Of a DNA stretch of 33,949 bases, positions 3,255 through 31,103 are shown piece by piece. Position numbers and translations under genes: made by a program. The notes under the pieces were generated by a model, which ran no database searches, was not told the origin of the DNA, and worked only from the letters and a program-made list of their open reading frames with translations. Source of the stretch: an uncultured Opitutaceae bacterium (GTDB lineage: Bacteria > Verrucomicrobiota > Verrucomicrobiia > Opitutales > Opitutaceae); NCBI GenBank assembly GCA_903916755.1, contig CAIWXW010000147.1:1-33949 (forward strand). The letters run 5' to 3'. Within the stretch, counting starts at the first letter, position 1. Each line of letters begins with the position of its first letter.

Positions 3255-3317
3255 AGGATACCGTGGCGCGGCCGGACCGTCTCCGCACACGTTGCCGGAC
3301 GCCGCGCATTTCTTGCC
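3255..3317 (-). promoter_or_regulatory. Promoter of ccoS-ccoNOQP with tandem 21-bp boxes
   Basis: Read on the minus strand: box 1 GGCAAG (3317-3312) with GCGCGG after 4 bp; box 2 GGCAAC (3296-3291), exactly 21 bp later, with GCGGAG after 4 bp; then -10 TATCCT (3260-3255), 36 bp after the start of box 2. The -35 position reads GAGACG, far from TTGACA, which suggests activator dependence. The same layout recurs at nine other promoters in this window. Seen in sequence; function inferred. Confidence 0.7.
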
Positions 3318-3337
3318 GCGGCGCGCTGGGCGGCTAA

Positions 3338-3883
3338 TCAGCCGGCCCGCGGCGTCCCGGCGGGCGCGAAGGCCATCACGATGACGCCGAGATAGTTGGC
3401 GGCGGTCATGGGATCGACGTCCGGCTTCTGCACATTCAGGCCGCGCGTGGTCCAGCCGTCGGCCTGGAGCCGCACAAGGTAGTGCGCGACCCGGAGGCCG
3501 TCGGCCCGGCGAAAGACGGCCGTCATGCCCTCTTTGAGCGTGGCATACGGGATCGGCTCGACCACCAGGAGCGTGCCCGGAAGGTAAAGCGGCATCATGC
3601 CGACGTCATCGCCGCGCATGACGAGGGCGTTCGGGCGCAGACTCGCGTAGTACTCGGCGGCGGCGAGGATCTTGTCCCGCGGGAGCACGACGGCGAGGGG
3701 CGAAAGGGCGACATAGACCCGCTGGGCCGGATCCTCCCGGCTGCACCCGCTCGGCCAGCCGCCGCACAGGATGACCAGGACGAGCACGGGAACCGTGACA
3801 AACCAGAAGAGCAGGCGCTTGGCCCGGGGATCATTCCCCTGCTGGTTCCCGGGCGCGGGGCTGAATGGCAAGGTCCGGTTCAT
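3338..3883 (-). CDS. Membrane-anchored S24/S26 peptidase-like protein lacking the catalytic serine
   Basis: A 181-residue protein with one N-terminal transmembrane helix (about 23-41) and a C-terminal part resembling signal peptidase/LexA-type serine peptidases. Where the family has GxSMxP followed by PGD, this protein reads VGMMPLYLPG (94-103), with Gly95 in place of the nucleophilic serine. It retains LKEGM, a histidine in VAHYLV (H134; a histidine serves in Sec11-type signal peptidases), and RGLN and NYLGVI near the end. It is therefore probably not a peptidase, and its true role is unknown. It lies upstream of ccoS in the same direction with its own predicted promoter, and could help oxidase assembly. 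The family resemblance is moderate; absence of the serine is read directly. Confidence 0.6.
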   Translation of the reverse strand: MNRTLPFSPAPGNQQGNDPRAKRLLFWFVTVPVLVLVILCGGWPSGCSREDPAQRVYVALSPLAVVLPRDKILAAAEYYASLRPNALVMRGDDVGMMPLYLPGTLLVVEPIPYATLKEGMTAVFRRADGLRVAHYLVRLQADGWTTRGLNVQKPDVDPMTAANYLGVIVMAFAPAGTPRAG

Positions 3884-3888
3884 GCCGC

Positions 3889-3951
3889 ACCTTACCCCTT
3901 CCCCTCCCCCTCCGCTCCGCGCTTCTTGGCGAAGATGGAGGGTCTATTGGT
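3889..3951 (-). promoter_or_regulatory. Promoter upstream of the S24/S26-like gene and cco operon
   Basis: Minus strand: weak box 1 ACCAAT (3951-3946), box 2 GCCAAG (3930-3925) followed after 4 bp by GCGGAG, then -10 TAAGGT (3894-3889), exactly 36 bp after the start of box 2. Only 5 bases separate the -10 from the ATG at 3883, so the transcript may be leaderless. The upstream end overlaps the last codons of the NarL-type regulator gene. Confidence 0.6.
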
Positions 3952-4645
3952 CCGAACCCTCGGTTTCGACCCAGCGGACCGCGTGCCGGACGAGCGCCGT
4001 CACCTCGCTCAGCCCCAGCTTCTCCTTGATGTGGCCGCGGTGGACGTCGACCGTCTTGGGGCTGAGATGGAGCTGGGCGGCGATCTCGCGCGTGCTCTTC
4101 CCCTGCCCGATCAGCCGGAAAACCTCGAACTCCCGGTCGGTCAGGGTCTGGATCGGCGAGGTCGACGCGCGCGGCTTTCGCTGCGACAGGTTCTCGAGAA
4201 TCTTGGCCGACAGCTGGGGGCTCACGTAGATCTCGCCGCGCAGCACCTGGCGGATCGCCAGCAGCAGGTTCTCGCCGCCCGCCTCCTTCATGATGTAGCC
4301 GCGGGCACCCGCCCGCAGCAGACGCTCGGCGTAGATTCCCTCGTCGTGCATCGACACGACCAGGATCGCCAGCTTGGGATGGGACGCGCGCAGATCCTTG
4401 ATGAACTCGATGCCGCTGCGTCCGGGCATCGTGAGATCAGTCAAGACCAGGTTGACCGAGGTCTTGCCCAGAAGCGTCTTGGCCGCGGCCGGATCCCCCG
4501 CCTCCCCGCAGACCATCAGGTCGGCCTGGCGGTCGATCAGCTGGGCCAGGCCGGCCCGCATGAAGGGATGGTCGTCGACCACCAGGATGCGATACTTTGC
4601 CGGGGCCGGAAGGGGCGCCGGGGGGCGGAGGCGGACCGGTTTCAT
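3944..4645 (-). CDS. NarL/FixJ-type response regulator
   Basis: Receiver domain plus LuxR-type helix-turn-helix, about 233 residues. The receiver starts near ILVVDDHPFMRAG, with acidic pair D24/D25, phosphoacceptor D70 in VLTDLTMPG and the switch lysine in GYIMKEAG. The DNA-binding domain is near the C-terminus (LTDREFEVFRLIGQGKSTRE, then LSPKTVDVHRGHIKEKL). The start codon overlaps the stop of the upstream kinase gene (ATGA); ATG at 4654 is an alternative. The partner is almost certainly the HisKA_3 kinase next door, since that kinase class normally pairs with NarL-type regulators. It is a candidate for the factor acting on the repeated promoter boxes in this window, but nothing in the sequence proves it. 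Confidence 0.92.
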   Translation of the reverse strand: MKPVRLRPPAPLPAPAKYRILVVDDHPFMRAGLAQLIDRQADLMVCGEAGDPAAAKTLLGKTSVNLVLTDLTMPGRSGIEFIKDLRASHPKLAILVVSMHDEGIYAERLLRAGARGYIMKEAGGENLLLAIRQVLRGEIYVSPQLSAKILENLSQRKPRASTSPIQTLTDREFEVFRLIGQGKSTREIAAQLHLSPKTVDVHRGHIKEKLGLSEVTALVRHAVRWVETEGSDQ

Positions 4646-5694
4646 TTTGGCCATGGCAGGAGGCAGGTGACGGTGACACCCTGGTCGCGGGTCGATGTGA
4701 TGGCCAGCTTGGCCCCGATCATCCGGGCGCGGTGGTCCATCACCCCCAGTCCCATCCCCCGCCCCTTGGTTTTCGGCAGGCCGCGGCCGTCGTCGGAAAT
4801 CTGGAGTTGGAGCGCCGCTCCGCGGCGTCCCAGGCGCACGACCACGGACCGGGCGTGCGCGTGCTTCAGCGCATTGTTGATCGCCTCCTGGCCGATTCGA
4901 TAGAGGTGGCCGGCCACGGCCCGGTCCGCGATGAGAATGGGGCCCGCGCACTCCAGCCGGCACTTGATCCGGCCCACGGCATTGGTCCGCTCGATCAATT
5001 CCATCAGCCCGGTCCGGAGAGCGTCGGGGTCGTCGCTTACGGGCACCAGCCCCCGCGCGAGCATCCGGGTCTGGCCGACCGCCTCGCGCAGCAATTTGGA
5101 CATTTGGCTCAGGCGGGTCGCGAGCCCGGGATGAACGGCGGACGCCTCCTCCTGCAGGCCGGCGCAGAGGAGCTCAATCGCGGTCAGCTGCTGGCCCAGG
5201 CCATCGTGCAGGTCCTCGCCGATCCGCCGCTGCTCGCGTTCCGTGGTGTGGAGAATTTCCGCCTCGAGCCGCCGCTGCTCGAGCTGCGCGGCCGCGAGCA
5301 CCTTCTCCTTCTCGATCGTGGCGAGAGCCTGGCGCACGACGCCGGGCAGCAGGTCGAGCAGCCCCATGTCCTTCATGACATAGTCGAGCGCCCCCTGCTT
5401 CATGACCGCGGCGGTGGCCTTGGCGTCGCCCTGGCCGGTGATGACGACAAACGGGACCGGCGCCGCGCGCTCCCGCAGCCGCTCCAGCAGCGCGTTGCCC
5501 CCGACTTCCTTCATCTTCAGGTCGAGCAGCATCAGGTCGGGCCGGTGGCCCTCCAGCCAGCGGAGCGCGGCGGCGCCCGACGGGGCGGTCGCGACCGTGA
5601 ACCCCTCCGCGCGCAGCGTCTCGGCGATGAGGATCAGGATGCCCTCGTCATCATCGACGGCGAGAATCTGGACGGCTTTGTCGGCGGGGCGCAC
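4642..5694 (-). CDS. Receiver-HisKA_3 hybrid histidine kinase
   Basis: A 350-residue cytosolic protein with no membrane segment. An N-terminal receiver domain (acidic patch D14-D16, phosphoacceptor D58 in LMLLDLKM, lysine in DYVMKD) is followed by a coiled linker, a HisKA_3 dimerisation domain with the phosphorylated histidine H163 in EDLHDGLGQQL, and an HATPase_c domain (N box EAINNALKHAHA; G boxes DDGRGLP and GMGLGVMDHRARMIG). A receiver ahead of a NarL-type kinase suggests that its activity is set by phosphorylation from another kinase, probably the PAS kinase in the same operon. It overlaps the downstream NarL-type regulator gene by 4 bases and lies 12 bases after the single-domain regulator. 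Confidence 0.9.
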   Translation of the reverse strand: MRPADKAVQILAVDDDEGILILIAETLRAEGFTVATAPSGAAALRWLEGHRPDLMLLDLKMKEVGGNALLERLRERAAPVPFVVITGQGDAKATAAVMKQGALDYVMKDMGLLDLLPGVVRQALATIEKEKVLAAAQLEQRRLEAEILHTTEREQRRIGEDLHDGLGQQLTAIELLCAGLQEEASAVHPGLATRLSQMSKLLREAVGQTRMLARGLVPVSDDPDALRTGLMELIERTNAVGRIKCRLECAGPILIADRAVAGHLYRIGQEAINNALKHAHARSVVVRLGRRGAALQLQISDDGRGLPKTKGRGMGLGVMDHRARMIGAKLAITSTRDQGVTVTCLLPWPK

Positions 5695-5706
5695 CGGCGG
5701 GCCAGA

Positions 5707-6153
5707 TCAGGACGCGGCCACCGCGGGCATCTGCATGAGCGAAATGAACATTCCCAGACGCCGGATGGCTTCCGCGAAGCGCTCATAGTCCACGGGCTTC
5801 TGGATATAGACGCTGCAGCCCAGCTGATGGCAGCGCTCGACCTCGCGGGTGTCATCAGTGGTGGTCAGCATGATGATCGGCAGCTTGCGCAGCTCGGGAT
5901 CGAGCTTGAGCCGGCGCAGGACCTCGATGCCGTCGACCTTGGGCATCCGGATGTCGAGGAGGATGAGATAGATTCGCCCGCCTTCCATGCTCGGATTCGG
6001 GCCGGACTTGAAAAAGAAATCGAGGATCGCCTGGCCGTCGCGAAAATGCCGCACCTCGTTGTTCAGGCCGCCGGCGGCCAGGTTTTCCCGCACCAATATG
6101 GCGTGGCCCTCGTCGTCGTCTACGATCAGGATGATGGGGGCGTACTTCTTCAT
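5707..6153 (-). CDS. Single-domain response regulator (CheY/Rcp1-like)
   Basis: A 148-residue stand-alone receiver with acidic residues D12-D14, phosphoacceptor D67 in YLILLDIRMPK, the TTTDD stretch and the switch lysine in YIQKPVD. The insertion near residues 47-60 and the DFFFKSG segment resemble the Rcp1 family that partners phytochrome-like kinases. With no output domain, it most likely shuttles phosphoryl groups between the PAS kinase just upstream (4-base ATGA overlap) and the receiver-kinase just downstream. Confidence 0.9.
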   Translation of the reverse strand: MKKYAPIILIVDDDEGHAILVRENLAAGGLNNEVRHFRDGQAILDFFFKSGPNPSMEGGRIYLILLDIRMPKVDGIEVLRRLKLDPELRKLPIIMLTTTDDTREVERCHQLGCSVYIQKPVDYERFAEAIRRLGMFISLMQMPAVAAS

Positions 6154-7415
6154 GGCGGGCTGGAGCTGGAATCTCCGGCCTTGGGCAACGCTAGGTGGAA
6201 AGTGGAGCCGACTCCCACCTGGCTCTCAACCCAAATCTTGCCCCTCTGCCGCTCGAGGAGGCGTTGGGCAATGGCGAGACCTAATCCCTCGCCCGGCGTC
6301 GCTTCAGGATCGAGCTTGTGGAAGATTTCGAATATCTTCGCCTGGTGCTCAGGCGCGATCCCGATGCCATTGTCGGCCACGGTGTAGATCGCTTGCTCCG
6401 CATCGATCCGTCCGCTGACCGTGATGCGCAACGGCCTACTGGAATCCCGGTACTTGACGGCATTGTCGATCAGGTTGGCGATGACCTGGTTGATATGGAC
6501 CCGGTCGCCGAGACAACTGGGCAGCGGCTGCACGATGACTTCGGCCTCGGCCTGGGTCAGCTGGAACTTCATGGCGGCCAGGATTTCTGCGACGATGGCG
6601 TTCACGTCCAGGGTGGCGATCGTGACCGAAACATGGCCCAGGCGGGAATACCGCAGGATGCCGGCCAGCAGCATCTCCATCTTGTTGGCACCGGCATTGA
6701 TGAATCGCAGGGCCTGCGGGATGGCGACATCGAGCGGCGCCTTGAGCTCGGTGGCCGGCACGGGCTTGCCGTCGGCGGTTTTGAGCACGCGGATGATCTG
6801 GTCACAGGCGCGCGCCAGCTGGCGGCTGAACCCCTGCACGTTCACCAGGGGCGAGCGCAGGTCATGCGAGATCGTATAGACAATGGCCTCGAGCTCCTTG
6901 TTCTTGGCCGCGAGGTCGGAGGTCGAGCGCTGCAGCTCCGCTTCATTGGCCTTGCGCTGGGTCACGTCGGTGCGGATCGCCACATACTGCAGCGGCCGGC
7001 CCGCCGGGTTGAGCCGGGGAAAGATCGTGGTTTCCACCCAATAGAGGGAGCCGTCCTTGGCCCGATTTTGGATCTCGCCATGCCAGACCCGGCCGTGCCC
7101 GATGGTGGCCCAGAGGTTGCGGAAGAATTCCTTGCCGTGGCGCCGCGAATTGATGATCCGGTGGTCCTTCCCGATCAGCTCCTCGCGGGAGTACTGCGAG
7201 ATGGCGCAGAACTTGTCGTTGACATAGGTGATCTTGCCGGCGGCGTCGGTGATCGCGACGATCGAATGCTCGTCGAGCGCCGCCTTGATGTCCCGCAGCT
7301 CCCGGACGGCGGACTCGGGCAGGAGCAGGCCTTTCTTGGGCCGGGCCGCCGGCTTCCGGCGCGGCGCGGGACGGGCGCGGCTGGATTTAGGCGGGGTCTT
7401 TTCTTTCCGGGGCAC
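6150..7415 (-). CDS. PAS-domain sensor histidine kinase
   Basis: A 421-residue soluble kinase. A basic, low-complexity N-terminus (1-30) precedes a PAS domain (about 40-155) of the type reading RHGKEFFRNLW, VWHGEIQNRAKDG, YWVETTI, and then a HisKA domain with H184 in ISHDLRSPL. The HATPase_c domain follows (NLIDNAVKYRD, ADNGIGIAPE, EGLGLAIAQRLLE). This PAS subtype resembles the flavin-binding Aer/NifL group, so redox or oxygen sensing is plausible but unproven. There is no transmembrane segment. The start is GTG at 7415. A -10-like TAGAAT lies only 7 bases upstream, so the transcript may be leaderless. First gene of the four-gene relay operon. Confidence 0.9.
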   Translation of the reverse strand: MPRKEKTPPKSSRARPAPRRKPAARPKKGLLLPESAVRELRDIKAALDEHSIVAITDAAGKITYVNDKFCAISQYSREELIGKDHRIINSRRHGKEFFRNLWATIGHGRVWHGEIQNRAKDGSLYWVETTIFPRLNPAGRPLQYVAIRTDVTQRKANEAELQRSTSDLAAKNKELEAIVYTISHDLRSPLVNVQGFSRQLARACDQIIRVLKTADGKPVPATELKAPLDVAIPQALRFINAGANKMEMLLAGILRYSRLGHVSVTIATLDVNAIVAEILAAMKFQLTQAEAEVIVQPLPSCLGDRVHINQVIANLIDNAVKYRDSSRPLRITVSGRIDAEQAIYTVADNGIGIAPEHQAKIFEIFHKLDPEATPGEGLGLAIAQRLLERQRGKIWVESQVGVGSTFHLALPKAGDSSSSPP

Positions 7416-7422
7416 GAGGGCG

Positions 7423-7450
7423 ATTCTAGGCGCCTAATCCCGCGCCGCAA
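7423..7450 (-). promoter_or_regulatory. Predicted promoter of the phosphorelay operon
   Basis: Minus strand: -35-like TTGCGG (7450-7445), 16-bp spacer, -10 TAGAAT (7428-7423), then 7 bases to the GTG start. It lacks the 21-bp boxes found at the respiratory promoters. Confidence 0.45.
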
Positions 7451-7467
7451 GGTCAGAGCGGATTCAT

Positions 7468-7484
7468 CTAGGGAAATTCCCTAG
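7468..7484. promoter_or_regulatory. 17-bp palindromic operator between divergent regulators
   Basis: Perfect dyad CTAGGGAA-A-TTCCCTAG in the 126-bp gap between the PAS kinase gene (minus) and the PocR-AraC gene (plus). It lies upstream of both predicted -10 elements, about 48 and 54 bp from their first bases. It could serve either direction; the binding protein is unknown. Confidence 0.55.
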
Positions 7485-7506
7485 CGAGATCGGGCTCCGG
7501 CTCCGA

Positions 7507-7535
7507 TTCACGGTCTGCGCGTCTTTTGCTATTGT
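7507..7535 (+). promoter_or_regulatory. Predicted promoter of the PocR-AraC gene
   Basis: -35-like TTCACG (7507-7512), 17-bp spacer, -10 TATTGT (7530-7535). Six bases separate the -10 from the ATG at 7542, so the start codon would be at or next to +1 (leaderless). No Shine-Dalgarno sequence precedes the ATG. Confidence 0.45.
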
Positions 7536-7541
7536 CAGCGC

Positions 7542-8513
7542 ATGCAAGCAGCCCTCGCCCTTCCGATTCCCGCCGCCGATTGCAGCAAGACCGACCGCGA
7601 CCTGATCACCCACCTGGAGAAATCCGAGATCTACCGCACCTACCAGCGCGCCTTCGAGATGACGACCGGCCTGCCCCTCTCCCTCCGCCCGGCCGGCTCC
7701 TTCCATGGGCCGCTCCACGGCTCAAAGCACGCCAATCCCTTCTGCGCCCTGCTGGCGGCCCGGAGCAAGAGCTGCTCGGCCTGCCTGCAGCTCCAGGACG
7801 CCATGGAGAAGGATCCCCAGGGGGACTACTGCACCCGGGAGTGCTTTGCCGGATTGAGTGAGTCCTCGATCCCGATCCGCCTGGGCGAGCGGATCGTGGC
7901 CTTCCTCCAGACCGGCCAGATCCTCCGGCAGAACCCGTCGGAGGCCCAGTTCGGCCGCACCATGCGCCAGCTGCGGGAGCTGGGATCGGACTATGACGAA
8001 AAGCGGCTCAAGGTTGCCTACTTCCAGACCCGGATTGTCACGCGGGCCCACTATGACTCCGTCCTGCGCCTGCTCTCGATCTTCGCGCGCCATCTTTCCG
8101 AACTCAGCAACCAGCTGATGGTGCAGGAAAGCGCCGCCGAGGCGCCGGTGGTGGCCCGGGCCCGCGCCTTCATCACCGAGCACCAGGGCGAACAGCTCTC
8201 CCTCTCCCAAGTGGCACAGGCGGTGAACATGAGCTCGTTCTACTTCTGCAAGGTGTTCAAGCGGGAGACGGGGCTCACCTTCACTGAGTTCCTCGCGCGG
8301 ATGCGCGTCGAGGCCGTCAAGAAGCTGCTCCTCAACCCGCACAAGCGCGTGAGCGAGGCCGCTTATGAAGCCGGCTTCCAGTCGCTGTCGCAGTTCAACC
8401 GCGTGTTCCGCCGGATCGTCGGGGATGCCCCCTCGGACTACCGGGACAAGCTGCACGGCGCCGAAGCGGCGCCGCGGGCGGGTCTCCCGCTCCGTCTCGT
8501 GCTCGCGAATTGA
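7542..8513 (+). CDS. PocR sensory domain / AraC-family transcriptional regulator
   Basis: A 323-residue cytosolic regulator. The N-terminal half (about 25-185) is a PocR-type ligand-binding domain with conserved cysteines in CSACLQLQ and CTREC and the IPIRLGERIVAFLQTGQ segment; related domains bind small hydrocarbons. The C-terminal third (about 205-305) is an AraC-type double helix-turn-helix (LSLSQVAQAVNMSSFYFCKVFKRETG, shown here only as a landmark: VNMSSFYFCKVFK, then EAAYEAGFQSLSQFNRVFRR). It diverges from the phosphorelay operon across a 17-bp palindrome and may regulate itself and that operon. The four or more cysteines of the sensory half could bind metal or sense redox state, but this is not shown. 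Confidence 0.88.
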   Translation: MQAALALPIPAADCSKTDRDLITHLEKSEIYRTYQRAFEMTTGLPLSLRPAGSFHGPLHGSKHANPFCALLAARSKSCSACLQLQDAMEKDPQGDYCTRECFAGLSESSIPIRLGERIVAFLQTGQILRQNPSEAQFGRTMRQLRELGSDYDEKRLKVAYFQTRIVTRAHYDSVLRLLSIFARHLSELSNQLMVQESAAEAPVVARARAFITEHQGEQLSLSQVAQAVNMSSFYFCKVFKRETGLTFTEFLARMRVEAVKKLLLNPHKRVSEAAYEAGFQSLSQFNRVFRRIVGDAPSDYRDKLHGAEAAPRAGLPLRLVLAN

Positions 8514-8535
8514 CGGGCCGCGCCGGCCGCTGGCC

Positions 8536-8598
8536 GGCAACGCAGGCGCGAAGAATGGCAAGGGATGCGGAGCGCGGGCGCGGGTCTGCGGTTACGTT
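8536..8598 (+). promoter_or_regulatory. Promoter of the DUF2934 gene with tandem 21-bp boxes
   Basis: Box 1 GGCAAC (8536-8541) with GCGCGA after 4 bp; box 2 GGCAAG (8557-8562) with GCGGAG after 4 bp; -10 TACGTT (8593-8598), 36 bp after the start of box 2. The 13-mer GGCAAGGGATGCG here is identical to that at the hydrogenase promoter. Confidence 0.65.
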
Positions 8599-8611
8599 TC
8601 CGAGGTGATTG

Positions 8612-8899: not shown

Positions 8900-8908
8900 T
8901 AGGGGCTT

Positions 8909-8943: not shown

Positions 8944-9276
8944 TTATTTGGCGAGCGTGCGCACGTAGGCGACCAGCGTCTTGATCTCGTCGTCGGAGAG
9001 CTTGTCGCTGAACGGCTTCATCTTGTCCTTGCCGTCGGCGTCCTTGAAGCCCTCCTTCACGGCCTTGAAGGCCTGGTCGTCGCTGAAGGTTTTGAGGTAG
9101 GCAGCGTCGGTCAGATCCTTGGCATGGAGCAGCCGGCCGGCCTTGGTATGGCCGGCGCCGTCGGCGCCATGGCAGGAAGCGCAGTTCTTGGCCCAAGTGT
9201 CGGGGGCGTCGGCGTGGGCGGCGACGGCGGCCGTCAGCAGGCAGGCAACGGAGGCGAGGACGGAATAGGATTTCAT
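8944..9276 (-). CDS. Small periplasmic monoheme cytochrome c
   Basis: A 110-residue class I cytochrome c. Signal peptide about 1-22; heme motif CASCH at 32-36; GADGAGHTKAGR follows; the likely axial methionine is M86 in DGKDKMKPF; the ending LVAYVRTLAK is a typical C-terminal helix. It resembles the cytochrome c at 30563-30910 closely enough to be a paralogue. It probably shuttles electrons between quinol-oxidising complexes and the cbb3 oxidase. It is transcribed alone from a promoter of the shared type; the transcript has a predicted leader of about 42 bases. Confidence 0.92.
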   Translation of the reverse strand: MKSYSVLASVACLLTAAVAAHADAPDTWAKNCASCHGADGAGHTKAGRLLHAKDLTDAAYLKTFSDDQAFKAVKEGFKDADGKDKMKPFSDKLSDDEIKTLVAYVRTLAK

Positions 9277-9324: not shown

Positions 9325-9387
9325 ATAATGCCATGGATGGCGGCGGGGCGCTCACCGGAACTTGCCATTCACTGCGCATCCCTTGGC
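9325..9387 (-). promoter_or_regulatory. Promoter of the small cytochrome c gene with tandem 21-bp boxes
   Basis: Minus strand: box 1 GCCAAG (9387-9382) with GCGCAG after 4 bp; box 2 GGCAAG (9366-9361) with GGTGAG after 4 bp; -10 CATTAT (9330-9325), 36 bp after the start of box 2. Box 1 faces box 1 of the divergent PatZ-like gene, and together they form a perfect 10-bp inverted repeat with an 8-bp spacer (9382-9409). Confidence 0.65.
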
Positions 9388-9403: not shown

Positions 9404-9466
9404 GCCAAGATCCGGGCAGGATAAGGCAAACCGCGCGGAGGCTGGCGGGGCGTATTCCAGTAGCCT
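9404..9466 (+). promoter_or_regulatory. Promoter of the PatZ-like gene with tandem 21-bp boxes
   Basis: Box 1 GCCAAG (9404-9409) with GGGCAG after 4 bp; box 2 GGCAAA (9425-9430) with GCGGAG after 4 bp; -10 TAGCCT (9461-9466), 36 bp after the start of box 2. Seven bases separate the -10 from the ATG at 9474, suggesting a leaderless or near-leaderless transcript. Confidence 0.65.
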
Positions 9467-9473
9467 GACTGCC

Positions 9474-12194
9474 ATGTCCGCACCCGCGTTCCAGGCCATG
9501 CCCAGCGTCCCCCACCGGCCCCTGGATTTTCTCTTCAATCCGCGGTCCGTCGCCGTGATCGGCGCCACGGACAAGGCCGGCAGCGTGGGGCGGGCGGTCC
9601 TGGAGAACCTGCGCGGCTTCGGCGGGGCGGTCTATCCGGTCAATCCCAAGCGGGCGCGCGTCCTCGACCGGCCGGCCTTCCCCGCCGTCGGGGCGATCCC
9701 GTCACCGGTGGAGCTGGCGATCATCGTCACACCGGCCGCGACAGTTCCCGGCCTCATCCGCGAATGCGTGGAGGCGGGGGTCAAGGGAGCCATCATCCTC
9801 TCGGCCGGCTTCAAGGAATGTGGGGCGGAGGGCATGGCCCTCGAGCAGCAGGTGCTGGACGAGGCCCGCCGTGGCGGCCTGAGGATCGTCGGTCCCAACT
9901 GTTTGGGCGTGATGGCCCCGCATGCCGGGTTCAATGCCACCTTCGCCTCGGCGCTGGCGCGGCCGGGCAACATCGCCTTCATCAGCCAGAGCGGGGCGCT
10001 CTGCACCGCCATCCTCGGCTGGAGCTTCCGGCGGAATGTCGGCTTCAGCGCTTTTGTCTCGGTGGGCTCGATGCTCGATATCGGCTGGGGCGACCTGATC
10101 TATCACCTCGGGGAGAATCCCCACACCCACAGCATCGTGATCTACATGGAATCGATCGGGGACGCCCGCGCATTCCTGTCGGCGGCCCGGGAGGTCGCCT
10201 TCACCAAGCCCATCATCGTCATCAAGGTGGGACGGACGGAAGCGGCGGCGAAGGCGGCCGCGTCCCATACGGGCGCCCTCACCGGCAGCGATGAGGTGCT
10301 GGACGCGGCGCTGCGGCGCGTGGGCGTGCTGCGGGTCGAGACCATTGAGGAGCTCTTCAACCTGGCGGACGTGGTCGGCAAGCAGCCCCTGCCCCGCGGG
10401 CCGCGCCTGACCATCGTGACGAATGCCGGCGGCCCGGGCGCGCTCGCGCTGGACATGCTCGTGACCGCCGGCGGCCAGCCCGCCGCCCTCGCCCCGGCGA
10501 CCCTCGCATCGCTCGATGCTTTCCTGCCCGGGCCTTGGAGCCATGGCAACCCGATCGACATCCTGGGCGACGCCGATGCCGGCCGCTATGCGCAGGCGGT
10601 CGACTGCGCCGTCCGCGAATCGGAGAGCGACGGGGTCCTTGTTATCCTTACGCCCCAGGCCATGACCAATGCCGCCGCGACAGCCACGCTGCTGAAGCCC
10701 TTTGCGCAGGTTGCTGGCAAGCCGATCCTGGCCAGCTGGATGGGCGGCGCCGAGGTGGATGAGGGCCGCCGGATCCTGACGGAGATGGGGGTGCCGGTTT
10801 TCGACTATCCCGACACCGCCGCGCGGGCCTTCGGCTACATGTGGAGCCGCAGCTCCAACCTGCGGTCCCTGTACGAGACCCCGGAGCTGTCGCTGCCCTC
10901 GGACGGCGGCCACGGGGCGCGGTCCCGCACCGCCGCGATCCTCCGGAAGGCCAGCGCCGCCGGCCGCACTCTCCTGAGCGAGCATGAGGCGAAGGCCATC
11001 GTGGCCGCCTACGGCATACCGACGATCGAGACCCGCGTGGCGCTGAGTGAGGCGGCTGCCGTGCTGGCGGCCAAGGACGTCGGGTTTCCCGTGGCGGTGA
11101 AACTTCATTCCGAGACGCTGACCCACACGACGGACGTCGGCGGCGTCTGCCTCGATGTCCCCGATGCCGACGCGGTGCGCGCCGCCTGGCGCGCAATCCA
11201 TGATTCGGTCGAGGCCAAGGCCGGTCCGGGTCACTTTCTCGGGGTCACGGTCCAGCGCATGGCGCCGCGGGACGGCTACGAGCTCATCCTGGGCAGCAGC
11301 GTCGATCCCCAATTCGGGCCGATTCTCCTTTTCGGCGCCGGCGGCCAGTTGGTGGAGGTGTTCAAGGACCGCGCGCTGGCGCTGCCGCCGCTCACGCTGA
11401 CGCTTGCCCGCCGGATGATGGAGCAGACGAAGATCCTGGGCGCGCTCAAGGGGGTCCGGGGCCGCCCGCCGGTCGATCTCGCGGCGCTGGAGCAACTGCT
11501 GGTCCGTTTCAGCCAGCTCGTGGCCGAGCAGCCCAGAATCAGGGAGATCGACATCAACCCGCTGCTGGCGGCGCCCGGCGGATTGGTCGCCCTCGACGCG
11601 CGGATCATCCTGCACGACGCCGCGCAGCCGGAAGCGGACCTGCCCCGGCTGGCGATCCGCCCCTATCCCCTCCAGTACGTCACCACGTCAATCCTGCGCG
11701 ACGGCGCTCATGTGACCATTCGCCCCATCCGTCCCGAGGATGAGCCGATGATGGTGAAGTTTCACGGGACCCTTTCGCCGACCACCGTCTACAACCGCTA
11801 TTTCGGGTTTCTTGACCTCGAGGAGCGCACCGCGCACGAGCGGCTGGCCCGGCTCTGCTTCATCGACTACGACCGGGAGATTGCGCTCGTGGTGGAGCAC
11901 CACGACGTGCACGGCGGTGGCAGGGCCATCCTGGGGGTGGGACGCCTGAGCAAGCTGAGTGACCCCAAGTCGGCGGAGTTCGCGCTACTGATCAGTGATG
12001 GTTGGCAAAACCGCGGCCTCGGCAGCCGGCTCCTGCGCCTGCTGGTGCAAATCGCCCGCGACGAGCAGGTCGTGCGGCTGGGCGGGGTGCTTCGCTCGGA
12101 CAACCATGCGATGAAGGCGGTCTGCCGGCGGCTGGAATTTGACCTGGAGGGTCCCTCCACGGAGGGGGTGATCGAGGCGTCCCTGCGATTATGA
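9474..12194 (+). CDS. Acyl-CoA synthetase (NDP-forming)/GNAT acetyltransferase, PatZ-like
   Basis: A 906-residue protein with the domain order of bacterial protein lysine acetyltransferases Pat/PatZ (Pka). In order: CoA-binding domain (about 18-115, [16 protein letters not shown]); succinyl-CoA-ligase-like domains (about 150-460) with SHTG at 264-267; ATP-grasp-like domain (about 480-725); and a C-terminal GNAT domain (about 745-900, with NRGLGSRLL near 846-854). In ADP-forming acyl-CoA synthetases the SHTG histidine (H265 here) is phosphorylated. In some Pat enzymes it is lost, so here the synthetase half may still be active. Likely roles are acetylation of metabolic enzymes or acyl-CoA/ATP interconversion. 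Monocistronic or leading into usp, which has its own promoter. Confidence 0.9.
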
Positions 12195-12206: not shown

Positions 12207-12269
12207 GGCAAGGAGTGCGCTCGTTATGGCAAACGCTGAGCAGCCTGCCGGCGGCAAAAACGGTAGGCT
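12207..12269 (+). promoter_or_regulatory. Promoter of usp with tandem 21-bp boxes
   Basis: Box 1 GGCAAG (12207-12212) with GCGCTC after 4 bp; box 2 GGCAAA (12228-12233) with GAGCAG after 4 bp; -10 TAGGCT (12264-12269), 36 bp after the start of box 2. The predicted +1 near 12276 lies downstream of the in-frame starts at 12205 and 12226, supporting the start at 12292. Confidence 0.65.
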
Positions 12270-12788: not shown

Positions 12789-13250
12789 ATGACGAGCGCA
12801 GACGTTGCCGACCTGGCCGCCCGCCGTGACTCCATCCGGACGCGGTGGACGGAGGTCCTCGGGCTGGACCGGGCGTCGTCGGCGCTCGCGAGTCCGGAGA
12901 TCCTGGTCTACATGATCGACCACACGCTGGACGACTTGTTCGCCGCGCTCGCGCGCCAGGTCGGGGAGGCCATTCCAGCTCCCCCGCCCGCCACCTGCGC
13001 CTGCGGGCGCAACCCCTACCTGCAATATTTCGCGGCGGGCCGCCAAGCCGTGCTTGAAGCCCTGGTCTTGGGACAGTCGATCGTCCTCGGCCTCAACCCG
13101 GCTGAGCGCGATCTGGCGCTGCGTGAGCTCGAGCGGGCCTACAATTCAATTGAGCGTGAGCACATCGAGAATTTCTGCGCCATATGCCAGTTCAACCCGG
13201 CCCGGGGCGCTCCGGCGAATCTCGCCAGCCTCCCGGCCTGGGATCGCTGA
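12789..13250 (+). CDS. Unrecognised small protein with CxC and CxxC motifs
   Basis: A 153-residue soluble protein that I do not recognise. It is mostly helical, with hydrophobic segments around 36-57 and 77-105, and four cysteines in two pairs: CAC at 70-72 and CAIC at 130-133. The pairs sit before and after a helical core, which would suit a metal or Fe-S site or a redox disulfide. It follows usp by 20 bases and is probably cotranscribed, which points to a stress or redox role. Its 3' end lies 14 bases from the convergent UbiA-like gene. Confidence 0.65.
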   Translation: MTSADVADLAARRDSIRTRWTEVLGLDRASSALASPEILVYMIDHTLDDLFAALARQVGEAIPAPPPATCACGRNPYLQYFAAGRQAVLEALVLGQSIVLGLNPAERDLALRELERAYNSIEREHIENFCAICQFNPARGAPANLASLPAWDR

Positions 13251-15089: not shown

Positions 15090-15461
15090 CTAGGGGCGGA
15101 GGGCCGCGGCCACCCAGGTGAGAACGACCAGCACCAGATTCTTGAGGACCATGCCGGCGGGGTCGTGAATCTGCTGACGGGCGTAGGTCAGGCCCACCGT
15201 GTTCATTGCGGCCAGCGCGAGGGTGGAGAGGAGCGCGGCCCACCACGGCTGCCAGCCGGAGAGAAGCCAGGCGCCCAAGAGGCACTCCGCATAGCCCAGG
15301 GCGGGAAGAAACCAGCGGGCGCCGTCCGGGCCGAGTCCGGGCACCGCGGCCACGATGCCCGGCTGGCCCCGCGCGCCGCCCAGGATCTTGCACCACAGCC
15401 CCTCATAGATCCAGACGGCCGCGACGACTAGGCGGATGAGCAGGAGCGGGGGCATGCTCAT
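15090..15461 (-). CDS. DoxX-like membrane protein
   Basis: A 123-residue protein with four hydrophobic helices, beginning MSMPPLLLIRLVVAAVWIYEGLWCKI, a layout typical of DoxX-like proteins (landmark: VVAAVWIYEGLWCK). DoxX-like proteins are poorly characterised; some relate to quinone-linked oxidation or membrane redox stress. First gene of an operon with DUF3419 and UbiA-like genes. The -10 element TAGAGT abuts the first ATG. The predicted +1 falls on the second ATG (15455), so translation may start there on a leaderless message. Confidence 0.72.
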   Translation of the reverse strand: MSMPPLLLIRLVVAAVWIYEGLWCKILGGARGQPGIVAAVPGLGPDGARWFLPALGYAECLLGAWLLSGWQPWWAALLSTLALAAMNTVGLTYARQQIHDPAGMVLKNLVLVVLTWVAAALRP

Positions 15462-15524
15462 ACTCTAGGCGAAGACGGGTCCGCCCGCGCGGCGCCGCTT
15501 GCGCATCGCTCCGCAAATCTTGCC
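15462..15524 (-). promoter_or_regulatory. Promoter of the DoxX-DUF3419-UbiA operon with tandem 21-bp boxes
   Basis: Minus strand: box 1 GGCAAG (15524-15519) with GCGGAG after 4 bp; box 2 CGCAAG (15503-15498) with GCCGCG after 4 bp; -10 TAGAGT (15467-15462), 36 bp after the start of box 2. It diverges from the hupE promoter. Confidence 0.65.
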
Positions 15525-15541: not shown

Positions 15542-15604
15542 ACCAAAGCATGCAACGGTTCCGCCAAGATCCGAGGAGCGGCCCCGGGGCTGATGTGCGA
15601 GAAT
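15542..15604 (+). promoter_or_regulatory. Promoter of hupE with tandem boxes
   Basis: Box 1 ACCAAA (15542-15547) with GCAACG after 4 bp; box 2 GCCAAG (15563-15568) with GAGGAG after 4 bp; -10-like GAGAAT (15599-15604), 36 bp after the start of box 2. The 13-mer CCGCCAAGATCCG (15561-15573) also occurs at the PatZ-like and hydrogenase promoters. The -10 is weaker than at the other sites. Confidence 0.55.
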
Positions 15605-20505: not shown

Positions 20506-20568
20506 ACTATACTCCTCCCGGAGCGGGTCGGAAACGCATCCCTTGCCAATCGCTCGGCGGATCTTGGC
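20506..20568 (-). promoter_or_regulatory. Promoter of the hydrogenase operon with tandem 21-bp boxes
   Basis: Minus strand: box 1 GCCAAG (20568-20563) with GCCGAG after 4 bp; box 2 GGCAAG (20547-20542) with GCGTTT after 4 bp; -35-like TTTCCG (20534-20529); 17-bp spacer; -10 TATAGT (20511-20506), 36 bp after the start of box 2. It contains exact copies of both 13-mers found elsewhere: CCGCCAAGATCCG and GGCAAGGGATGCG. Confidence 0.7.
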
Positions 20569-26485: not shown

Positions 26486-26498
26486 GGAAGGGCGGGGA

Positions 26499-28280
26499 TC
26501 AGGCGGCGGCGGGGCCATTCCGGCTGCGCCAGCGGGCCCGGGGGATCGCCGCCAGGGCGATGACGGCCAGCTGGCAGCCCACAAAGAGGATCAGGCCGTG
26601 GAAGGCCGCGTTGGTGAAGCCATAGCTGTGCAGGCCGACTCCCAGCATGTTTGTGCCGAACCAGCTCCAGGCCGTCACGATGTTGCCAAAGACGGCCAGC
26701 GCCATCAGGCCACGCTGGCGGACGAGTCCGCCCCACCGGCAGTGCAGGATCACCGCGTTCCAGATCACGATCAGGAGGGCGCCATTCTCCTTTGGATCCC
26801 AGCCCCAGAACCGGCCCCAGGACTGGTCGGCCCAGATGCCGCCGAGCATGGTGCCGACAAAGCTGAACAAGGTGGCGAAGCAGACGATGCCGTAGACCAT
26901 CCGGGCCAGGGCGTCGGCGGTGCGGGCATCGAGCGAGCGGGTGAAGACGCCGCGAACGATGTAGATGATCGCCAGGAATCCGGCGAGGAAGGTGGCCGCA
27001 TACCCGGTGGTGACCGTCACGACGTGGGTCGAGAGCCAGAAGTTCGAGTCAAGCACCGCCCGCATCATCTCCATCGTGTCCCCGCTCAGGGACAGGTGGT
27101 GGGCGATGATCAGGGTGCTGAATCCGATCAGGCTGCCGGCCGCGCTCGCGACCCCGTTGCGGTTCATCCGCTCGAGGATCAGGCAGAGGCCCACCGAGCC
27201 CCAGCCGATGAAGAGCGCGGAGGAATACAGGTTGGTCACCGGCGGCCGGGCCTCCAGCCACATCCGCGCGGCGATGCCGGCCGTCGCGAGGAGGAAGGCG
27301 AGCGCCATCAGGCGGAAGGCGGCCCGGCCGAGCTCCTCCGGCCAAACGAGCCAGGATAGGGCGGCGAGCAGGAAGGCGGCGACGTAGAGATAGAGGCTCG
27401 TGATGAAGGGCTCCGCCCGGTCAAAGGCGGCCTCGAAGCGGGCGCGCCGGATCGCGTCGGGGAAGGGGTCGGCCAGCTGGGCCTCATAGGTGCCGAGCAC
27501 GGCATTGAAGGCCGCGGGGCTGCGGTCGCGCCAGGCCTGCCCGAGCACAGCATAAGCCCGCACCGCCGGCGGAACCTCCGCCGGGCCGGTCACCGCGTGG
27601 AGGGCGTGGCCGACGTTCTGCCAGAGCGCCGGATCCGGGACGCCGGATAACGGGGGCACCGCCCGGAGGAGACTGTAGGTGTCCATCGAGGCAAAGGCGG
27701 TCTGCTCGGCGCGGAGGCGGTCGGCGTCGGCGATTTCCGCCGCAAAGTCGGCCCGGTCCGGCGGCTGCAGGCTGAACTTCAGGCGGTCGTAGTAGGCGAC
27801 GTGCTCCCGCAGCTCGACCACCGCCCGCTGGAACGAGGTCCGCGCGGCGTTTTCGACCGGCTCGGCAAGCCGGGCCTGCCGGTCGAGTTCGTCGAGGCCG
27901 GCTTCGAGCTGGTGGAACGAAAAGCGGGTGCCCCCCTCCCCGTCCGCCGGGGAAAGGTTGAAAAGCAGCAGCACGTCAGGGCTGTCGATGCGGAAGATCC
28001 GCTCGGTGTCCGCCTTGCTCCCCTCGAAGAACAGGTCGAGCAGCCATTCCTCCGGGGTAAGGCGCGAGCCCTCCGGTGCGATGACGCGCTGCCGCCCCTG
28101 GAGCATCAGCAGGCTCGTTCGGGCGATGGTGGCCATCGGCTTGATCCGCCCGTCGGCGAGCACGGGCAGGCGGCCGAAGCGGGCGAGCGCAAATTCACCA
28201 GCATCAGGCCGCGGCGCCAGCGAGCCGGCGACGACGGTCAGGGCGAGCAGGAGGACGAAGAGGGGAAAATAGGTTTTCAC
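26499..28280 (-). CDS. ccsA: System II cytochrome c biogenesis protein CcsA (ResC-like)
   Basis: A 593-residue membrane protein of the heme-handling family with the WWD signature WGRFWGWDPKEN at 488-499. The arrangement is one N-terminal helix, a large extracytoplasmic segment (about 25-290), then eight or so helices with conserved histidines (IIAHHLSL, STHVVTV, VGLHSYGF). With ResB it exports heme and attaches it to CxxCH apocytochromes in the periplasm, which are abundant here. The N-terminal extracytoplasmic part is longer than in short CcsA proteins. It overlaps the ResB gene by 4 bases (ATGA). Confidence 0.92.
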   Translation of the reverse strand: MKTYFPLFVLLLALTVVAGSLAPRPDAGEFALARFGRLPVLADGRIKPMATIARTSLLMLQGRQRVIAPEGSRLTPEEWLLDLFFEGSKADTERIFRIDSPDVLLLFNLSPADGEGGTRFSFHQLEAGLDELDRQARLAEPVENAARTSFQRAVVELREHVAYYDRLKFSLQPPDRADFAAEIADADRLRAEQTAFASMDTYSLLRAVPPLSGVPDPALWQNVGHALHAVTGPAEVPPAVRAYAVLGQAWRDRSPAAFNAVLGTYEAQLADPFPDAIRRARFEAAFDRAEPFITSLYLYVAAFLLAALSWLVWPEELGRAAFRLMALAFLLATAGIAARMWLEARPPVTNLYSSALFIGWGSVGLCLILERMNRNGVASAAGSLIGFSTLIIAHHLSLSGDTMEMMRAVLDSNFWLSTHVVTVTTGYAATFLAGFLAIIYIVRGVFTRSLDARTADALARMVYGIVCFATLFSFVGTMLGGIWADQSWGRFWGWDPKENGALLIVIWNAVILHCRWGGLVRQRGLMALAVFGNIVTAWSWFGTNMLGVGLHSYGFTNAAFHGLILFVGCQLAVIALAAIPRARWRSRNGPAAA

Positions 28281-29515
28281 AACGGAAGGGGGGCGGGCTG
28301 GCGGACAGCGGCGGCCGCGGCGGAGCGCCGCCGCAGGGATCCGAAGAGGCCGAGGCCGAATTGGACGAGCAGCCCCAGGGCGATCATCCCGCAGGACCAG
28401 TACGGAATCTGCCAGCTGGGATTGCGGACCGCCTGCAGGACGGAGGTGCGGTCATTGTTGGCGAAGCCCGCCTGGTAAAAGGCGTATCCGGCCGTGCGCA
28501 GCGGCTTATTCATCGAGATCTGCACCACCCGGTCGTCACCGCCGCTGTCTCCCCGCAGCTGGAGCGTGCTGGCGAAGTTCTTCGGGATGTCGGTTCCGGG
28601 GTAGATGTCGTGGGTGAACTTTTTAAGCGTCAGGGTGAACGGCAGGTAGTCCCGGCGGGCCCGGAGGGCCAGCTGCCAGGAACGGCCCTGGTAGGTGAAC
28701 GTCTGGGGCTGCTCCAGGAGGGTCGATACGAGCCACGTGCCGAGCGGACCGTCCGGGCCGGCCAGCTCGATGTAGCTGCTCGGCCAGTTCGTCTCGTCGG
28801 GCTTATAGGTGACCGGGGCCGGATCGACCAGCAGGTCGGTGCCGTCGCCCGCGGTGGCCACAGCCGGCGGGGGGGTGGTGAGCTGGCTGCGCACCCGCAG
28901 CTTCGCGTTTTCGAAGAATGCCACCGGGCGGATGGAGAAAGGCAGGCGGGGATCCTGGAGGGTCTCGGTCGCCTGCAGGTGCGCCACGGGGATGGCGACG
29001 ACCAGGTCGTTGCGGGGATCGGTGGTGTCGGTGACGGCGAGCTCATTCTCGCGGAAGCTCTCGACGTAGCGCTGGCTTTGGCCCACATCGAGCCGCACCT
29101 GGCCGTCCCTCTGCAGGAGGCCGGAGACGCCCTCGCCGATCAGCAGGAGGATCAGGCCGCAATGCGTCAGCCAGATCCCCGCCTTCTTCGCGGATAGCCG
29201 GAAACGGCACAGATGCGCCGTGATGAGGTTGACCAGCAGCGCGCCTCCGAGGAGATAGCCGCCGGGGAAGACCGGAAGCGAGATCGCCGTGCCCGGCAGC
29301 TTAACCCAGACGAGGAAGGCGTGAAAATACTTCTGCTGCACGCCCCAGACGCCGAGATGAACCTGGTCGAGGGTCGCGACGAAGATCATCACCAGCGAGA
29401 GGCAAAGCAGTCCGACGGTGAGCCGCAGGGAGGCGCAGGCGCCGAGGATCGCCCGGAGGGAGCCGCGCCCATGGGGGCGGTCGGCGGCGGGAACGGGCGG
29501 GCGGGAGGTGTTCAT
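28277..29515 (-). CDS. resB: System II cytochrome c biogenesis protein ResB (Ccs1)
   Basis: A 412-residue protein with three N-terminal membrane helices, a large periplasmic domain (about 150-365) and a last helix near 370-392. The first helix region (LRLTVGLLCLSLVMIFVATL), GIWLTHCGLILLLIGEGVSG and the late segment RTAGYAFYQAGFAN are typical of ResB/Ccs1. It acts with CcsA as the cytochrome c synthase. ATGA overlaps on both sides, with the lipoprotein upstream and ccsA downstream, imply tight cotranslation. Confidence 0.9.
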   Translation of the reverse strand: MNTSRPPVPAADRPHGRGSLRAILGACASLRLTVGLLCLSLVMIFVATLDQVHLGVWGVQQKYFHAFLVWVKLPGTAISLPVFPGGYLLGGALLVNLITAHLCRFRLSAKKAGIWLTHCGLILLLIGEGVSGLLQRDGQVRLDVGQSQRYVESFRENELAVTDTTDPRNDLVVAIPVAHLQATETLQDPRLPFSIRPVAFFENAKLRVRSQLTTPPPAVATAGDGTDLLVDPAPVTYKPDETNWPSSYIELAGPDGPLGTWLVSTLLEQPQTFTYQGRSWQLALRARRDYLPFTLTLKKFTHDIYPGTDIPKNFASTLQLRGDSGGDDRVVQISMNKPLRTAGYAFYQAGFANNDRTSVLQAVRNPSWQIPYWSCGMIALGLLVQFGLGLFGSLRRRSAAAAAVRQPAPLPL

Positions 29516-30585
29516 GGCGCCTGGACGGTCTGCAGGAAGGAGAGGAACGCCGGCCGGGCGCCTTCAACCACGGTGTCCGGGCCGGTCAGCTTGAAGAACC
29601 AGGTGGCGCCCTGCCACGAGACCAGGGCGGCGAGGATCCGCTGCCCGCCCGCGTCGGCGGTTCCGGCGCAGTCGACGAGGGTGAAGGTCAATCCATGGGC
29701 CGTCAGGGTCTCGGTGGCGCCGGGAACGGCTGAGGGTTCGAGTTCGGGCAGCCCGACCTGGCCGCGCCAGCGGTTCACATTGGCGGCCAGGCCGCCCACG
29801 TCGCCCGGGAAGGCGGTGACGGAAAGGTCGGCCGGAGTGGCCTCGGGGCCCACCCCGTAGCTGCCCTTGCGCATCGCGGATACGGGCTTGGCCCGCCAGG
29901 CTGCGGGAGCCTGCCACCGGAGGGAGGCGCTGTCACTTTGATCGGCGCCGGCGACCACAAAGGGGGTCGTGGCCGCGGCCGCGGGTGCGGGGACGCCGGC
30001 GTCGGGGTGCACCGAGCGCAGGAGCGCAAAAAAGGCATCCCGCTGAGCGGCCACCGCGGGTTGCGGGCCCATCATCTTGAAAAACCACACCCGTCCGGAT
30101 ACCTCCAGCCACGCTCCGAGAATGCGGGTGGCCGGGGCGCCGCCCGCGGAGCCGCCCAGGATGTCGGCGATGGAAAAACTGCCGGCGGGAGTGGCGAGCG
30201 CCTCGATTAGCGCCGGCAGCTGGGCGGCGGTCACCGGCTCAAGCTTCAGCTGGCCGCGCCAGCGGTTGATGTTCGCCAGCACGTCCCCGCCGGCGCCGCC
30301 GAACGTCACCACCGAGACATCGGCGCTGGTTCCATCAGGTCCGGGGGCGGCGAAGCTCGCGATCCGCAGGCCGGAAGCGGGCTGGGCCTGCCACCCGGCG
30401 GGCGCGGCCCACCGCAGATCCATCGTGGCGGGAGCCGAAGGAGCGGCGGCCGGCGCCGGGGCGGGCGCCGCGGCCGCAACGGCCGCGTCCTTGGGCACGC
30501 GATAGCTGGTGATGTCCTTGTCCGTGCAGCCGGCCAGACCGAAGGCCAGCCCGGCGGCCAGGCTATTTCTGCAGCGAGCGAACAT
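29512..30585 (-). CDS. Lipoprotein with tandemly duplicated domain, function unknown
   Basis: A 357-residue protein. A short signal peptide ends in the lipobox LAGC (Cys20), followed by an Ala/Pro-rich linker (about 35-50). Two copies of a domain of about 145 residues follow. The first has LRWAAPAGWQAQP and ANINRWRGQLKLEP; the second has LRWQAPAAWRAKP and ANVNRWRGQVGLPE. Both end in a strand reading VWFFKMMGP or TWFFKLTGP. No heme motif is present. It lies between a cytochrome c gene (23-base overlap) and resB (ATGA overlap), so a role in cytochrome c assembly or delivery in the periplasm is plausible. The domain family is not one I can name. Confidence 0.7.
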   Translation of the reverse strand: MFARCRNSLAAGLAFGLAGCTDKDITSYRVPKDAAVAAAAPAPAPAAAPSAPATMDLRWAAPAGWQAQPASGLRIASFAAPGPDGTSADVSVVTFGGAGGDVLANINRWRGQLKLEPVTAAQLPALIEALATPAGSFSIADILGGSAGGAPATRILGAWLEVSGRVWFFKMMGPQPAVAAQRDAFFALLRSVHPDAGVPAPAAAATTPFVVAGADQSDSASLRWQAPAAWRAKPVSAMRKGSYGVGPEATPADLSVTAFPGDVGGLAANVNRWRGQVGLPELEPSAVPGATETLTAHGLTFTLVDCAGTADAGGQRILAALVSWQGATWFFKLTGPDTVVEGARPAFLSFLQTVQAP

Positions 30586-30910
30586 GGGCGACCAGGTCGG
30601 TGATTTCGGCATCCGTGAACTTGTCCCCGAAGGCGCGCATTTTCTCCTTGCCCGAGGCGTCCTTCAGGCCGCCCTTGATCCGCTGCGTCGCCTCGGCGTC
30701 GGTGAAACCCTTCTGGTAGGCGGGACTCGTCATGTCCTTCACCTGCGCCATGCGGCCGGCCTTGGTGTGTCCGGCCCCGTCGGGGCCGTGGCAGGCGGCG
30801 CAGTTGGTCGTCCAGTTTTCGGTGGCATCCGCGCAATGGGCGGCCGTGGCCCCGCCCAAGAGGGCGAAGGCCAGGGACAGGAGGGTCGCGGTCGGTTTGA
30901 TTGGGATCAT
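30563..30910 (-). CDS. Small periplasmic monoheme cytochrome c
   Basis: A 115-residue class I cytochrome c with a signal peptide (about 1-26, ending TAAHCADA) and heme motif CAACH at 37-41. GPDGAGHTKAGRM, a likely Met ligand in GKEKMRAFGDKF, and the C-terminal helix DLVAHVRSLQK follow. It is a paralogue of the cytochrome at 8944-9276, sharing the GAGHTKAGR stretch and the overall layout. First gene of the operon continuing through the lipoprotein, resB, ccsA and hypE. Confidence 0.9.
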   Translation of the reverse strand: MIPIKPTATLLSLAFALLGGATAAHCADATENWTTNCAACHGPDGAGHTKAGRMAQVKDMTSPAYQKGFTDAEATQRIKGGLKDASGKEKMRAFGDKFTDAEITDLVAHVRSLQK

Positions 30911-30984
30911 GGTGGTTGGGGATGAGAGGAGTGCGGTGCGAGTCCCATGGTCGAATTCCGCCCCCGGATTGTCCAAGTCAATGG

Positions 30985-31021
30985 CTGCGCAGTTATTGTG
31001 ATTGTCTCCGCGAGCCTTGCG
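30985..31021 (-). promoter_or_regulatory. Box array upstream of the cytochrome c-ccs operon
   Basis: Minus strand: CGCAAG (31021-31016) with GCGGAG after 4 bp, then CACAAT (31000-30995), 21 bp after the first box, with GCGCAG after 4 bp. The spacing equals that of the other arrays, but no good -10 lies 36 bp after the second box. If CGCAAG is the proximal box, the -10 position reads only GCCATT. The array is clear; the promoter is uncertain. Confidence 0.45.
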
Positions 31022-31040
31022 GGCGGACGGCGCCTCGCCG

Positions 31041-31103
31041 GACAAAAACTGCGGCGCGTTGGGCAAGGGATGCCCCGACGGGAAGGCGCCCGTCGCGTAT
31101 GCT
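31041..31103 (+). promoter_or_regulatory. Promoter of the pentaheme cytochrome operon with tandem boxes
   Basis: Box 1 GACAAA (31041-31046) with GCGGCG after 4 bp; box 2 GGCAAG (31062-31067) with GCCCCG after 4 bp; -10 TATGCT (31098-31103), 36 bp after the start of box 2. The -10 ends 12 bases before the ATG at 31116. Confidence 0.65.

Follow-up and report, generated by a model that had tools for sequence, protein, structure and literature searches.

Predicted AraC/XylS-type tandem operators at conserved respiratory and stress promoters of Opitutaceae, with a PocR-AraC protein as candidate activator

The described regulators closest to the system analysed here are AraC and XylS, the propanediol regulator PocR, and the low-oxygen regulators FNR/Anr and DosR. 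AraC occupies araI1-araI2 in a 21-bp register, and the FNR/Anr and DosR regulons have overlapping target types (cbb3 oxidase, hemN, hydrogenase, Usp and nitroreductase). Our subject is a contig of 33,949 nucleotides from an uncultured Opitutaceae bacterium (CAIWXW010000147.1; this whole stretch is hereafter called the window), in which ten promoter arrays with the same 21-bp register precede genes for cbb3 oxidase, cytochromes, uptake hydrogenase, a universal stress protein (Usp) and others. In each array, a half-site made of two unlike boxes one turn apart is repeated directly at 21 bp. The window also encodes P0001 (7542..8513, plus strand), a protein in which a PocR sensory domain is fused to an AraC-type DNA-binding domain, and which we propose as the binder of the arrays.

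XylS sites consist of a direct repeat of 15 bp in two copies; in each copy a 5' box A (TGCA) is separated by about one turn from a 3' box B (GGTA), and XylS monomers bind the copies in tandem and contact RNA polymerase (PMC5481539). The arrays share this plan with the XylS-dependent promoter Pm, but the core of their box A is SCAA instead of TGCA. Similarly, araI1-araI2 has two proximal sites, as in the arrays, and binding to araI2 recruits RNA polymerase (PMC4760080). The sensory parts differ: XylS responds to benzoates (PMC5481539), whereas P0001 has a PocR domain, which also takes the place of the sugar sensor of AraC. Unlike XylS/Pm, the genome of our bacterium holds 18 full arrays, many of them before respiratory genes. 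P0001 departs from PocR itself in that the scan of targets recognised no genes for propanediol utilisation, and in an extra cysteine that gives a CxxC in most of the P0001 clade. FNR/Anr and DosR, on the other hand, belong to protein families unrelated to P0001, and their sites are unlike the arrays. An earlier note on this DNA knew of no described regulator with such a site; that statement has to be amended, as the classical AraC/XylS geometry is what is seen here and the window itself encodes a candidate from this family.

Arrays in the window, the genome and relatives

The earlier note had listed ten arrays with their hexamers and a fixed geometry of 21 + 36 bp. Every one is present with identical letters, box 1 lies 57 bp ahead of the -10 in 10/10 of them, and the arrays of the window are confirmed as real. 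Their consensus is GnCAAGAnATGCGCAGnnTTnGGCAAGnnnTGCGGAGC-N19-TAnnnT. Box 2 starts 36 bp ahead of the -10, which places the proximal half-site over the -35. When each array was scored with a matrix built from the other nine, scores ranged from 9.2 to 31.9. The best score among 20 shuffled control strands was 17.7, a value exceeded by 7/10 arrays; those below it precede the S24-like open reading frame (ORF; 9.2), the PatZ-like gene (15.5) and hupE (16.9). An outside matrix was built from 60 arrays of other genomes only; these 60 had originally been found with the window matrix, so its independence is partial. It gave exactly eleven sites above 9 in the window, namely the ten arrays (20.5-38.9) and an eleventh (at 31021, minus strand; 18.5). 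Single-base shuffles gave 0.05 matches above 9 per window with this matrix, and a maximum of 18.3 in 100 windows.

The eleventh array (30984..31021, minus strand) lies before the second cytochrome c gene. Its boxes are recovered by the matrix, with a score that barely exceeds the best chance score; at offset 57, however, stands GGGGCG, and there is no -10 in register. It is also absent, at E<=10, from the matches in its own genome to R1, a sequence-only profile built from 70 arrays (60 from relatives and the 10 of the window). Three pairs of arrays in the window are divergent, with box 1 starts 17, 18 and 20 bp apart.

The genome to which the window belongs (3.35 Mb in 227 contigs, 93% complete) includes it as one entire contig, C147, with a guanine plus cytosine (GC) content of 69%. 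Scanning this genome with R1 at E<=0.01 gave 19 matches, the ten window arrays being included by construction. Eight are further arrays, on contigs C36, C40 and C148, and [TCG]A...T stands exactly at offset 57 in 8/8. The genes behind them encode Usp, a DUF2934 protein, a 96-aa protein, HemN, HemA (named from a reading of its translated start), a NapC/NirT-type cytochrome, a multihaem cytochrome c and a nitroreductase. The nineteenth match, on contig C87, is only a partial one, and an ORF called on the other strand overlaps it. Hence 10 of the 18 full arrays fall within the window, that is, within 1% of the genome. The genome-wide matrix scan that the earlier note had called for bears it out in that the new arrays precede respiratory genes, among others, at the same 57-bp offset.

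Arrays of this kind are also found in relatives. The best 80 of 157 matching stretches yielded 78 loci surrounding P0001 relatives; these were scanned with a window-only matrix of 38 positions that leaves out the -10, using the reversed matrix as a control. Matches above 16 numbered 206 vs 2 for the reversed matrix, and those above 20 numbered 159 vs 0; at least one match above 14 was present in 71/78 loci. At offset 57 from box 1, [TC]A...T occurs in 131/206 matches, compared with 0-9 at each other offset from 50 to 65. Equal matching of coding and intergenic DNA had been named in the earlier note as a refuting outcome; the comparison turned out in its favour, as 95/206 matches lie outside called ORFs vs 10.1% of random 38-mers, with ORFs delimited by a crude gene caller. 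Pairs of SCAA with an in-register -10, counted in loci L009-L086, number 83 at a spacing of 21; the other spacings from 10 to 40 have a mean of 2.4 and a maximum of 13. Divergent array pairs recur as well (n=46, counting distances of -10 to 120 bp between box 1 starts), and 19 of them are spaced by 18-20 bp. R1-type boxes scoring above 18 were found 12 times in the neighbourhoods of 20 distant relatives vs 0 times in the control, and 7/12 are no more than 1 kb from the AraC gene. The signal was only weak when 39 loci whose second recognition helix has TH were searched without a matrix: pairs carrying an in-register -10 numbered 8 at spacing 21, with a mean of 1.8 (maximum 6) at the others.

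Fourteen relatives (L018, L019, L027, L031, L042, L047, L051, L052, L061, L067, L072, L074, L080 and L085) have an array without an in-register -10. In these same loci a CTTTGCTC-like element stands directly behind the array, before ORFs of 430-451 aa with a DWKSRAVSA-like start, which may be CoA-transferases. Such arrays may represent either a different promoter type or a different mode of action.

The genes behind the arrays

Much of the regulon is conserved gene by gene, because homologues of the 11 array-bearing gene classes of the window have an array 50-420 bp upstream in 87/104 cases, vs 19/290 for homologues of the remaining window genes. The ccoNO genes behind ccoS account for 13 of these 19, and AraC genes for 85 of the 290; some of the 78 loci overlap, so that a few genes are counted twice. 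As the loci were selected around the AraC gene, target conservation by itself does not identify the regulator.

Conservation is seen for the array before the ccoS-like and ccoNO genes (3255..3317, minus strand; -10 TATCCT), which recurs before 42/44 ccoS-like homologues, and for that before the DUF2934 gene (8536..8598, plus strand; 18/18). The array of the cytochrome c gene at 8944-9276 (9325..9387, minus strand) recurs in 4/5 homologues, and the array before usp (12207..12269, plus strand) in 15/20. Both homologues (2/2) have an array in the case of hupE (15542..15604, plus strand), and likewise 2/2 for hupS of the hupS/hupL pair (20506..20568, minus strand). The remaining arrays precede the S24-like ORF at 3338-3883 (array at 3889..3951, minus strand, the weakest in leave-one-out), the PatZ-like acetyltransferase gene at 9474-12194 (9404..9466, plus strand), the multihaem cytochrome gene (31041..31103, plus strand) and the DoxX-like gene at 15090-15461 (15462..15524, minus strand). 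For the DoxX and second cytochrome c classes, no homologue was found in the 78 loci.

A Pfam scan of the targets covered 141 distinct ORFs behind arrays with a -10. Among the best 25 of their 44 Pfam families are DUF2934 (13), Usp (10), HemN (7), TonB C-terminal (7), COX1 (3), GNAT (3), HupE (2), hydrogenase small subunit (2), glutamyl-tRNA reductase (1) and nitroreductase (1). Self-comparison of the array-target ORFs in relatives also brought out a cysteine-bearing family of about 155 aa, with 48 members and a CxCGRNP...CxxC pattern. In the window its gene, located by tblastn, follows usp as the second gene after that array (12789-13226, plus strand); many of its homologues in relatives are close to the AraC gene, each with an array of its own in front. 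No Pfam match was obtained in two examples, the L065 member and the window ORF containing the homologue. This protein is a possible partner of the regulator.

Pfam assigned to the window a set of respiratory genes (fused ccoN-ccoO, cytochromes c, a multihaem cytochrome, cytochrome c assembly proteins and a ferredoxin-type protein) and a hydrogenase set (HupE, a NiFe hydrogenase with cytochrome b, and Hyp-type maturation genes). Signalling genes comprise a PAS kinase, a receiver-kinase protein, a receiver protein, a LuxR-type response regulator and the PocR-AraC regulator, and other matches are DUF2934, the PatZ-like acetyltransferase, Usp and DoxX. The ccoS-like and S24-like ORFs match no Pfam family, and both names come from the earlier note. 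At 703-3051 (minus strand), a single ORF of 782 aa joins the ccoN and ccoO domains (COX1 plus FixO). At 15455-15467 (minus strand), the start codon immediately abuts the DoxX -10, so that this transcript would be leaderless or nearly so.

The PocR-AraC protein as candidate binder

Judged from sequence, the regulon is real and conserved and its operator is of AraC/XylS type. It is quite probable that one activator of the AraC/XylS family uses the arrays as tandem operators, and that this activator is the PocR-AraC protein at 7542-8513. The only Pfam matches of P0001 are HTH_18 (1.9e-24), PocR (PF10114, 1.2e-19) and HTH_AraC. Its structure model (mean predicted local distance difference test, pLDDT, 82; predicted template modelling score, pTM, 0.56) has two helix-turn-helix (HTH) units in the DNA-binding domain, for which Foldseek returned AdpA-DNA, AraC and MarA domains. 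There is one close copy in its own genome, and its nearest relatives are found in Opitutaceae/Opitutae and other Verrucomicrobial assemblies.

Occurrence of the protein and of the arrays was compared in 188 genomes of the class, with thresholds of E<=1e-20 for P0001 relatives, which admits more distant PocR-AraC proteins, and E<=0.001 for arrays. Relatives are present in 88 genomes, arrays in 28 and both in 27. A P0001 relative is thereby found in 27/28 array-positive vs 61/160 array-negative genomes (Fisher 1.8e-9), and the sole array-positive genome without one (G097) has one array match at 1.9e-4. Among the 18 genomes of the family, arrays occur in 15/16 with a P0001 relative and in 0/2 without.

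The two recognition helices add a further element. The first reads FCK in 79/79 Opitutaceae-type proteins and in 54/57 from other families; the second has Q284 in 79/79 of the former and H284 in 47/57 of the latter. At array position 33, in box B, C is found in 65/69 arrays from Q284 Opitutaceae-type loci vs 3/15 from H284 loci, and at position 12 in 56/69 vs 2/15, both comparisons being uncorrected for phylogeny. The arrays used here were chosen for SCAA in both boxes, a -10, G32 and AG at 36-37, and hence are uninformative on the constancy of box A.

Several observations weigh against assigning the arrays to this protein. Of the genomes that carry a P0001 relative, 61 have no array by this profile, the site having perhaps drifted there, and G069, the one exception among the 16 family genomes with a relative, has one of 56% identity yet no array genome-wide at E<=0.001, nor any around the gene. 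In relatives, 54/206 matches are without an in-register -10, and target homologues without an array exist (PatZ-like, 4/10 with an array; S24-like, 0/2; multihaem cytochrome, 0/1). At Q284 loci outside the family, C stands at position 33 in only 1/3 arrays, and the covariation of helix and box B may, with phylogeny uncorrected, reflect one single event. Finally, an array pointing at the regulator's own gene was found in 0/85 Opitutaceae-type loci, and 0/12 arrays in distant loci point at an AraC start within 40-420 bp, strands checked; on these counts, self-regulation of the AraC gene was dropped.

Other explanations of the arrays were weighed. An artefact of composition or repeats in a GC-rich genome would fit the GC content of the window and the 3/10 sites that are unremarkable in leave-one-out, but it is refuted by the reversed-matrix control (2 vs 206), the fixed -10 offset and the conserved target genes, and we give it practically no credence. 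It is also very improbable that the binder is the LuxR/FixJ-type response regulator (3944-4612, minus strand, Pfam), driven by adjacent kinases as FixJ or DosR drive micro-oxic regulons. This regulator is indeed encoded next to the PAS kinase and the receiver-kinase protein, and has 27 homologues in the loci of relatives. However, a close orthologue (at least 67% identity) is present in just 6/18 family genomes, and 9/15 array-bearing family genomes have only lower-identity homologues or none at E<=1e-30; because of these nine, the FixJ/LuxR regulator is ruled out as general binder. Moreover, sites of the NarL/FixJ family are usually inverted repeats, unlike two different sub-sites in tandem at 21 bp.

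We regard it as unlikely that some other widely conserved factor, such as an OmpR-type response regulator or a different AraC protein, binds the arrays while the PocR-AraC gene is merely linked to them. OmpR-type regulators also bind direct repeats in 10-11 bp steps, one is encoded close to three arrays on contig C36, and P0001-positive genomes without arrays exist. Against this, a 21-bp repeat unit with two unlike sub-sites suits one protein with two unlike HTH units, and box B varies with Q284 or H284 in the second recognition helix of the P0001 relative at the locus. A Crp/FNR regulator was likewise considered as binder and rejected, as no Crp/FNR-type HTH (PF13545) was found at E<=1e-6 in the 93% complete genome.

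Proposed mechanism and signal

In the mechanism that we propose for the PocR-AraC protein, each half-site of 16 bp would consist of box A (GSCAAR) and box B (YGCGSAG), the first HTH reading box A and the second reading box B one helical turn on. Two monomers would lie head to tail at a distance of 21 bp, covering about -69 to -33, with the proximal half-site overlapping the poor -35. The activator would recruit sigma-70-type RNA polymerase to the -10, whose distance from box 2 is fixed at 36 bp. In this way, single or divergent arrays would co-activate the cbb3 oxidase, cytochrome, haem-synthesis, hydrogenase, Usp and related operons. The idea of the earlier note that an activator acts just upstream of and over the -35, at a common set of promoters of respiratory and stress genes, is strongly supported by the genome scan, the 57-bp offset in relatives and the shared targets. 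The arrays, their spacing, targets and conservation, the co-occurrence and the helix/box B covariation are all drawn from sequence; what we infer from them is that the protein binds and activates, how the boxes are allotted to the two HTH units, and the signal.

As to the signal, cbb3 oxidase, the oxygen-independent HemN, uptake hydrogenase, Usp and nitroreductase are among the targets here and belong to known low-oxygen regulons. A micro-oxic signal is plausible from these targets, and we infer that a low-oxygen role of the regulon is likely. The PocR domain would probably sense low oxygen, the redox state, or a metabolite of oxygen-limited growth. Four of its cysteines, C68, C78, C81 and C101, are invariant in 79 aligned P0001-type sequences, making the PocR domain of P0001 a possible metal or redox sensor. 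In the class at large, 25 loci gave 22 PocR domains, of which 21 retain C68, 21 C81 and 21 C101, but 15 retain C78; because of this difference, the fourth cysteine, C78, marks the clade. The other three are shared by PocR domains of the class in general. A cysteine-based sensor built on all four is speculative, and we put it forward tentatively; a literature search in a limited library recognised no iron-sulphur PocR or AraC oxygen sensor.

It is conceivable, if rather doubtful, that the PocR-AraC protein, with a redox- or oxygen-labile cofactor on the four cysteines, is the global low-oxygen activator in Opitutaceae and does the work of FNR there, in the present case in a genome where no Crp/FNR-type regulator is detectable. 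A general replacement of FNR is not supported, because 12/18 family genomes carry a Crp/FNR-type HTH. In two genomes, a gene with such an HTH lies about 1-1.3 kb from the AraC gene (G155, contig C33 near 51923; G064, contig C34 near 43110), which suggests a regulatory cascade there.

Overall, both operator and activator are of a known kind, and what is new is PocR-AraC control of a multi-operon respiratory regulon; a limited literature search recognised no described regulon of this kind for Verrucomicrobia/Opitutaceae. AraC-type proteins are usually local regulators. The present analysis names directly testable residues, four cysteines and one recognition-helix residue, and offers, for the control of respiration in Opitutaceae, a concrete candidate regulator together with its operator and a list of targets. 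If it is true, an AraC-type protein would act in this family as a multi-operon respiratory regulator.

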